Positions 32,601 through 35,600 of a stretch of DNA of 64,000 nt are shown here, in pieces; within the stretch, counting starts at the first letter, position 1; each line of letters begins with the position of its first letter. Below the pieces are notes generated by a model. That model did no database searches. It was not told where the DNA came from and worked only from the letters and a program-made list of their open reading frames with translations. The translations under genes and the position numbers were made by a program. Where the stretch lies: contig OX465113.1 of the NCBI GenBank assembly GCA_949987565.1, positions 1,828,264-1,892,263 of the forward strand, in the 5' to 3' direction. This stretch comes from Luidia sarsii. Taxonomy: Eukaryota; Echinodermata; Asteroidea; Paxillosida; Luidiidae.

Positions 32601-35600
32601 AGGGAAGGAGGCAGGGAGGGAGGCAGGGAGGGAGGCAGGGAGGGAGGGAGGCAGGGAGGGAGGAAGGGAGGGAGGCAGGGAGGGAGGCAGGGAGGGAGGC
32701 AGGGAGGGAGGCAGGGAGGGAGGCAGGGAGGGAGGCAGGGAGGGAGGCAGGGAGAATCGGTGAACGACAGTGTGGACTATGTGTCGGCGCGCGCTGACGA
32801 GTATTGAACGAGAAGTGAAGGGGAGGAGGGGGGCTACTTGTAACGCCCCTCACAAGAGAAGCTCTTATTACCAAGTGTGACTCTTGTTAGTTAAGTTTAA
32901 AGAGGTATAGATCACGCCCCTCCCAGCGAAAACAATCAAAGAACGGCTCTTTCTGTCTCTCGACATTGGATCGGATAAGCAAACAAAGTTTTGAATTCTG
33001 GCAACGGAATTTTTTTCTTTTAATTAATTAATGAAAATGACATTGATAATGCGTCAGACTCCCTGTTATTCATTAATTTCACATTTTGTATCTTTCGCTG
33101 TCAACTTCCTTCCACCAGTGTCGTGACACGTCCAACATTTGCAACACTAAGGACAGACAAAGCCAGTGAAAATTCACCTGCCGCTGTCCAAACAAGACAA
33201 ATCCGACACTCCATTAACAATGCACGGATTGCAAACAAAGCTGGTATACTGTTTACGTATACTTCAAAGGCAACTTCATCGCTATCCACATTTTGAAACA
33301 AGACATTCAGTGCATGAGTTTGACTTCTTCCAGCGGATGGCTTACCTTACTTGTTTGACTTCTTTGCGGATTCGTTTGTCCAGGGTAAAGGAAATCTTGT
33401 TAATGAGTTTCACGGCGATAGTCTGACCGTTGCTGTCGACAAAAAAGAAGAAGATGCACAATGCTTTGATGACATCCGATGTAGACGAGCTGTTTCTTAA
33501 TGTAATTGCGGCACGTCTTTTGGGATATGATAGCTCTCAACTCATGCATTTCAATTTCGATTTCGGCATAAATGCTTTCTGGCCGTAGGAAATTTTCCTT
33601 AAAATCAATACAGTGATGATGCTAAAAGAGTAGAAGGGTCTGATGACGTTTGGACCTCTCTTCTATTGGATTCTCAGAATTTGGAGGGCCTGACGTTTCG
33701 ATCCTTGCAGGAACATTTTTGAAAGGCATTCTGCCTTTGGGAAAGGTCCAATAGAGACCAACGGTTTTTGTTTCAGTCTAGACAATAGCATTTGGTCTAT
33801 CAAGGTCTGCAATATGAAAAACAAAAACCAGACGGGAGAAATATAACTTTTTTCAACAACGTTGGTCCAATTATGAACTAATAGCATGATTGGTTGATAA
33901 AAGCCGGACTGTTGGATTGTAACAACCTTCCGATATGTTCTGATGAAACTATAGACCCAGAGTTGGCCAAACGATTTTGTACACAGAAGTTTTTGAGCCC
34001 AAAAGTGACGGAGTCACTGCCTCACATGATTCCCGCCTGGGTGAAGAGTTAGCCCAGCGATTTTGTACCCAGAAGTTTTCGAGCCCAAAAGTTACGGGGT
34101 CACTGCCTCACAATGATTCCCGTCTGTGTGAAGAGTTGGCCCAACGATTTGGTACCCAGACGTTTTCGAGCCCAAAAGTTACGGAGTCACTGCCTCACAA
34201 TGATTCCCGCCTTGGTGAAGAGTTGGCCCAACGATTTTGTACCCCAAAGTTTTTGAGCCCAAAGTTACGGAGTCACTGCCTCACATGATTCCCGTCTGGG
34301 TGCAGAGTTGGCCCAACGATTTTGTACCCAGAAGTTTTTGAGCCCAAAAGTTACGGAGTCACTGCCTCACATGATTCCCGTCTGGGTGAAGAGTTGGCCC
34401 AACGATTTTGTACCCAGAAGTTTTTTAGCCCAAAAGTTACGGAGTCACTGCCTCACAATGATTCCCGTCTGGGTGAAGAGTTGGCCCAACGATTTTGTAC
34501 CCAGAAGTTTTCGAGCCCAAAAGTTACGGAGTCACTGCCTCACATGATTCCCGTCTGGGTGAAGAGTTGGCGGGAGTGGGCCGCCGCGGCCAGCCCGCCG
34601 ATGCTCGACTGCTCGTTGTCCGTGCGCACGCTGATAACGCTCCCCGTGAACCCCCGCAGTCCGGTATCTGGGGAATGGGGGGAAGGGTGATGTGTGGGTA
34701 AGATGAGGGGTGCAGGGGTGGAGAGGGAGGGCAGAAGGGGTGCAGGGGTGGAGAGGGTGGGCAGAAAGGGTATTGGGTGGAGTCACAGAGAAAAGAGTAA
34801 ACATTATACACAAATAAAAGCGCAGTCACGTGACACACGATGACGTAATATTAGCGTCGTTGTGCGCGGGACTAATAGACCTCAGGGACAATGTTTCGAC
34901 CAAGTTTGGTTAAAAAACGGTCTTTATTGTTAAAAAAAACTGATTAGAATGCACCCGTGCTTTGTCTATGGGATTTTTGACCGAAGAAGAGGAAGTTGAA
35001 AACGGAAAAAGCAAAAAAAAAAAAAACACACCATGCGCTACCATGGCAATGCCAACGTGTGCATGCCGATGGGCAGGCGTGACGGAGATGGAGCTTCCCC
35101 GAAACAAAAAATGTGACTGGGAAGGGCTGAAAAGGATTTATCTCCCCGATCCCCTTCTGATTTGACTCTACATGACGTCTATCTCGTCGCGTCTTGGATG
35201 AACAACGGTTATTGAACTGTCTTCCATTCATTCTTCTTTTTATTCATTCGTTTTTATCTTATCTAATATCAACACTTCTCCGGATTGCCACGTTACCGGG
35301 CGTGCCGATGAGGGCTTAATGCGCTGATTCCCACCAAGGATTCACTTCCCCTACCCTTTCAATCCTTCCGCCCGATGAATAGTTCCACAAGTACGCGGAC
35401 AAAAAATATTTATGTGCAGAAGAAAAAGGCAATGCTGCATATATAGTGCTGCTTTTGCGTCAGAAACCTCGCACGAGTGTGTGTTTTTTTTTTTCGGCTA
35501 GAGACGGAGCTGGCGTTCACGGAACCTCATTCAAGATGCGCTTTTGATGGCTGCAATCTAACCCCAAATTGCCTTCCCGAATTGCGAACTGAATGGGACT

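Follow-up and report, generated by a model that had tools for sequence, protein, structure and literature searches.

An 86-bp tandem array carrying an exon end and its splice donor in a sea-star membrane guanylate cyclase gene

We analysed a 64,000-nt stretch of the Luidia sarsii genome (here called the window) in which the end of one coding exon of a membrane guanylate cyclase gene, together with the splice donor that follows it, is repeated seven times in tandem. The array is quite probably a minisatellite derived from this exon–intron junction, with the first donor in use and the other six latent, and would be a near-neutral by-product that is slightly costly to the gene and exposes it to a mutational hazard. 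Protein homology places the productive junction at the first copy, and all six downstream donors lead to the same premature stop codon.

Structure of the array and its host gene

Tandem Repeats Finder located the array at 33959–34571 (period 86, 7.1 copies, 93% matches, score 1059), confirming an 86-bp repeat that had been recognized in an initial annotation of this DNA. The units differ in length by single base pairs (Table 1). Each consists of 27 nt that in copy 1 are the end of a coding exon (QLFTQTGI; 28 nt when an extra T is present), followed by an intron part of 58–59 nt that opens with a GTGAGG donor (present in 7/7 units, that of copy 1 being the modelled authentic donor). The layout of all seven copies thus bears out the annotated start inside the exon and the annotated donor, although the intron part is longer than the ~50 bp given there. 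Seven donor positions were found, one (34543) followed by six downstream as had been described; all fell where they had been placed except that of copy 4, at 34284 rather than 34285. The extra T precedes the donor in copies 2, 5 and 6, so that the order along the transcript (none, T, none, none, T, T, none) is not the alternation initially reported.

Table 1. Coordinates of the array, its copies (in transcript order) and the flanking coding exons within the window
Feature	Positions	Strand	Remarks
Repeat-bearing coding exon (124 nt) of receptor guanylate cyclase	34544..34667	-	Its final 27 nt form the exon-derived part of copy 1
Tandem array	33959..34570	-	7 copies of ~86 bp, then a partial copy of 8 bp
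Copy 1 (86 bp)	34485..34570	-	Donor CAT/GTGAGG, first intron base 34543; modelled authentic donor
Copy 2 (87 bp, extra T)	34398..34484	-	Donor ATT/GTGAGG at 34456
Copy 3 (86 bp)	34312..34397	-	Donor CAT/GTGAGG at 34370
Copy 4 (85 bp)	34227..34311	-	Donor CAT/GTGAGG at 34284
Copy 5 (87 bp, extra T)	34140..34226	-	Donor ATT/GTGAGG at 34198
Copy 6 (87 bp, extra T)	34053..34139	-	Donor ATT/GTGAGG at 34111
Copy 7 (86 bp)	33967..34052	-	Donor CAT/GTGAGG at 34025
8-bp partial copy CCAACTCT	33959..33966	-	Intron end of the array
Next coding exon (NGQTIAVK...)	33346..33432	-	Acceptor GTCGACAG/C; joins the 34543 donor in phase

Copies 1 to 3 are identical at 84–85 of 86–87 positions, consistent with the high identity from which a recent expansion had been proposed. 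This does not extend to the other pairs, which fall to as few as 77 identical positions (7–9 mismatches), and the array as a whole therefore appears not to be very young. Among copies 1, 2, 3 and 5, each of the four possible pairings of the T insertion with an A/G difference at intron base 32 is found, a pattern that points to exchange between copies or to recurrent mutation. When the full array was searched against its own 470.9-Mb assembly, the single match was the array itself (such counts are lower bounds), and this genome-wide search found no second haplotype; polymorphism in copy number is plausible. Outside the array, the window holds only weak, short matches to the unit (the best being 20 bp, E 0.029).

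The exons of the host gene were located using a natriuretic-receptor stretch as bait, and 15 of them, from the transmembrane segment (read in one modelled exon) to the C terminus, could be placed on the minus strand with GT–AG ends. The joined protein contains a kinase-homology domain (PF07714, E 6.5e-38) and a C-terminal cyclase domain (PF00211, E 2.6e-64). The presence of all three parts identifies the gene as a membrane (receptor-type) guanylate cyclase. Identity was highest to proteins of Acanthaster planci (88%) and Asterias amurensis (85%) among the 120 matches listed of 6,909 found, and the best PDB match was atrial natriuretic peptide receptor 1 (E 1.8e-148). The ANF_receptor domain (PF01094) was absent up to E 1 from three close relatives (the extracellular part within the window itself being incomplete), so that 'natriuretic peptide receptor' in the names of relatives is a loose label. 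Three exon pieces lie upstream of the repeat-bearing exon, at ~63.9 kb (extracellular), 41.3 kb and 36.0 kb of the window, which makes it the fourth placed in the window, in agreement with the annotation. A search with the N-terminal 230 residues of a close relative (P0001) found no further upstream exons in the adjoining 19.7 kb beyond the window. For the extracellular exons at 63728–63949 and 41176–41327, relatives carry, ahead of the membrane, a Cys-rich segment of the form CGNxxCE...CxxCPADCxxCPL. No Pfam domain was found in the 41-residue exon peptide alone.

Donor choice and its predicted consequences

At the exon end, ...ATC AT at 34544 joins C AAC GGT CAG at 33432 in phase. The resulting QTGI-x-NGQ junction is gapless in all 11 aligned rows (the query and 10 of the 120 listed relatives), and tblastn with P0001 likewise set the last residues of the repeat-bearing exon directly beside the first residues of the next. 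Because this junction aligns without a gap to the 10 relatives, we infer that 34543 is the productive, authentic donor, as initially proposed; the same alignment contradicts an exon end outside the array, which the annotation had named as a finding that would overturn its reading. Reading through 34543 yields ATC ATG TGA, so that the immediate stop predicted on read-through of the first donor holds for each of the later ones, the model protein ending in QTGIM-stop for 6/6. Use of any of them would cut the receptor short ahead of the VAVK strand, also as had been suggested. The annotation further held that some copies would shift the frame. Because the TGA comes first, such a shift would change nothing when a later donor is simply used; it would count only for copies included as micro-exons of their own.

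Donor strength was assessed with consensus tables rather than MaxEntScan, on which scale the 14 modelled donors of the gene range from 5.99 to 10.97 bits. The CAT/GTGAGG donors of copies 1, 3, 4 and 7, identical over nine bases, reach 7.53 bits, a value that ranks tenth of the 14, and the ATT/GTGAGG donors of copies 2, 5 and 6 reach 5.36 bits, below every modelled donor. Because the seven array donors are the only GT sites of at least 4 bits between 34667 and 33500, nothing else in this interval is likely to compete as a donor. Since four of the seven donors are identical over nine bases, their sequences would not by themselves account for the first being strongly preferred; its use is supported by homology.

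Comparison of the copies gave no sign that the downstream donors are maintained. Across the seven copies, 18 of the 87 alignment columns vary, comprising 6 of the 28 exon-derived and 12 of the 59 intron-derived columns. The longest stretch without variation spans 14 columns, starting one base ahead of the donor and ending at intron base 13, and random placement of 18 variable columns reaches this length about as often as not (P = 0.49). Because exon and intron columns vary alike and the run over the donor is at chance level, column conservation across the 7 copies provides no sign of selection on the downstream donors. The downstream exon pieces carry residue changes, and copy 7 lacks the first coding match. 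Folding was ordinary, with z-scores of -0.25 to -1.43 for the seven units and -1.61 for exon plus array (20 shuffles), and no known RNA families or tRNAs were found within the window.

Origin of the array and alternative explanations

We propose that the minisatellite arose by tandem duplication at the exon–intron junction, taking in both exon and intron, and that the first duplication was possibly seeded by a short CCAACTCT match shared by the exon and the intron, the intron one being the present 8-bp partial copy. The spliceosome would take the first donor (34543), which has a proper exon in front of it, and the six downstream copies would lie in the intron as latent donors. Occasional use of one of these would add multiples of ~86 nt to the transcript, with TGA directly after an ATG codon, and such transcripts would either enter nonsense-mediated decay or encode a receptor cut before its kinase-homology domain. 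The array would thus be chiefly a by-product, close to neutral and only slightly costly. The similar variability of exon and intron parts and the lack of unusual conservation of the donor, as expected without selection, are consistent with this reading. Exchange between copies may also set the extra T of copy 2, 5 or 6 before the authentic donor, which would break the frame.

The position of the array over an exon edge is unremarkable in a genome of this kind. The modelled 35.9-kb part of the gene contains 13 arrays and 28 exon edges, with one array observed over an edge. Random placement of the 13 arrays (short simple repeats included, and edges treated as free of selection) gave a mean of 2.3 arrays over an edge, and in 94% of trials one or more arrays covered an edge. 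Arrays with units of at least 10 bp and at least 4 copies numbered 21 in 17 other 10-kb stretches of the genome (170 kb), equivalent to 7.9 per 64 kb, compared with 9 in the window; four of the 17 stretches were largely or wholly repeat. Tandem arrays are common in this genome and, because minisatellites are so dense, one over an exon edge is expected. Two of the 10-kb samples (C2:2000001-2010000 and C2:6000001-6010000), 4 Mb apart on one contig, consist wholly of tandem repeat according to Tandem Repeats Finder.

The alternative with most in its favour, which we nevertheless regard as unlikely, is control of dosage by copy number, in which the extra donors divert a substantial fraction of transcripts to decay and the repeat number sets receptor output. 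Four identical donors and a stop from every later donor are compatible with such control, and human CBS provides a precedent in that repeat number was linked to lower enzyme activity (by the title of Lievers et al. 2001, cited in PMC2630376). However, the downstream donors show no excess conservation and three of the six later ones fall short of even the weakest donor modelled in the gene. By analogy, a low level of diversion might also be expected from the human ABCA7 repeat, for which unit retention is reported at ~2% and independent of repeat length (PMC5954066).

The assembly could instead have collapsed or expanded the locus, the real number of copies being other than seven, perhaps a single one—a possibility already raised by the initial annotation. 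We consider this very unlikely, although not negligible, given that the window contains no N and its contig is 18.9 Mb long; moreover, the copies bear distinct private differences and the array matches a single place in the assembly.

Splicing of the copies as micro-exons is improbable to a still higher degree. Here a putative acceptor, CAACTCTTCACCCAG, located 11 or 12 nt before each donor, would allow 74–75-nt mini-introns to be removed and micro-exons of 11 or 12 nt to be included. On paper six such mini-introns are possible, and the frame would be kept by the 12-nt exons (copies 2, 5 and 6) and by the chain of six copies (69 nt), but would be broken by a single 11-nt exon. The acceptors lie within the range of the gene's own (1.8 to 12.3 bits) at 6.05 bits in copies 1, 2, 3 and 6 and 7.77 bits in copy 7, but are low in copy 4 (3.96) and copy 5 (3.47), and the copies that would yield 12-nt exons have the weakest donors. 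Micro-exons of this size usually require dedicated factors, and 0 of the 10 aligned relatives carry an insert at the junction. Introns have been described elsewhere as products of tandem duplication across splice junctions (PMC4974935, PMC2812944), which lends the idea a precedent. An elaboration in which the array acts as an expandable cassette, with in-frame inserts of 4 residues or longer at the start of the kinase-homology domain, 11-nt copies as off switches and the repeat number setting the mixture, seems the most improbable of the readings considered. Little probability, about that of the micro-exons, attaches to a U1-binding or G-run platform, in which intronic donor-like sites and GGG triplets would aid exon definition or shield the transcript from premature cleavage: the 585 nt of array intron contain 26 overlapping GGG (shuffled mean, 9.6) and the other 525 nt of the intron contain 0, but this excess reflects one unit copied seven times and so counts as a single observation, and neither conservation nor folding departs from the ordinary.

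Comparable repeats and other arrays in the gene

Repeats that include a splice donor are known from human genes, and in CBS the extra donors yield minor aberrant transcripts. The CBS repeat is a 31-bp VNTR whose name, c.1444_1467+7(16_21), specifies 24 coding and 7 intron bases; it occurs in 16–21 copies in people, and its units differ by single substitutions (PMC2630376). It is the closest case in anatomy, each copy carrying an exon end and a donor as in the sea star. It differs in its constant unit of 31 bp (~86 bp with 1-bp length differences here), in gene and phylum, and in being known as polymorphic, whereas the sea-star array has been seen in one assembly.

The VNTR in intron 18 of human ABCA7 is the best measured analogue. 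According to the published account (PMC5954066), its first two bases are the authentic donor, and in 2 ± 1% of transcripts, whatever the VNTR length, splicing from the second donor leaves one unit in place; retention breaks the frame and feeds decay, and the main effect of length is skipping of the next exon. Both arrays include the authentic donor, and in both the use of a second donor retains one unit and leads to decay (as a prediction in the sea star). Unlike the unit described here, that of ABCA7 is 25 bp long and wholly intronic, without exon sequence. Internal tandem repeats at exon–intron boundaries of human paralogs (PMC2812944) and intron gain by tandem duplication (PMC4974935) are further reported instances in which a duplication that spans a splice junction can give rise to new splicing options; the new introns in those reports are accompanied by transcript evidence, whereas the sea-star mini-introns are putative.

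Because the array starts before the authentic donor and every unit contains a copy of that donor, its sequence points to a donor-bearing exon-edge VNTR of the CBS and ABCA7 kind, in a new gene and phylum. A literature search of open-licence papers found no title on such an array in a sea star. The effect of the array is most likely small, with only little mis-splicing. Should the later donors be used, the locus would offer a natural test, outside vertebrates, of the spliceosome's choice between identical donors spaced by 86 nt, with any wrong choice null in the cyclase gene. Exon-edge arrays of this kind may be numerous in sea-star genomes rich in minisatellites.

Further arrays occupy introns of the same gene. 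In the intron after the transmembrane exon, a 15-bp unit (CCATGGTTGAACCAT) that is nearly self-complementary (ATGGTT-G-AACCAT) is repeated ~19 times at 40683–40964. At 20307–21949, a 23-bp unit is present in 71.5 copies (89% matches); as 23 is not divisible by 3, the long open frames in this stretch are attributable to the repeat. A 12-bp G-rich unit (GGGAGGGAGGCA) recurs in ~69 copies at 31928–32754, and this array could form G-quadruplexes.
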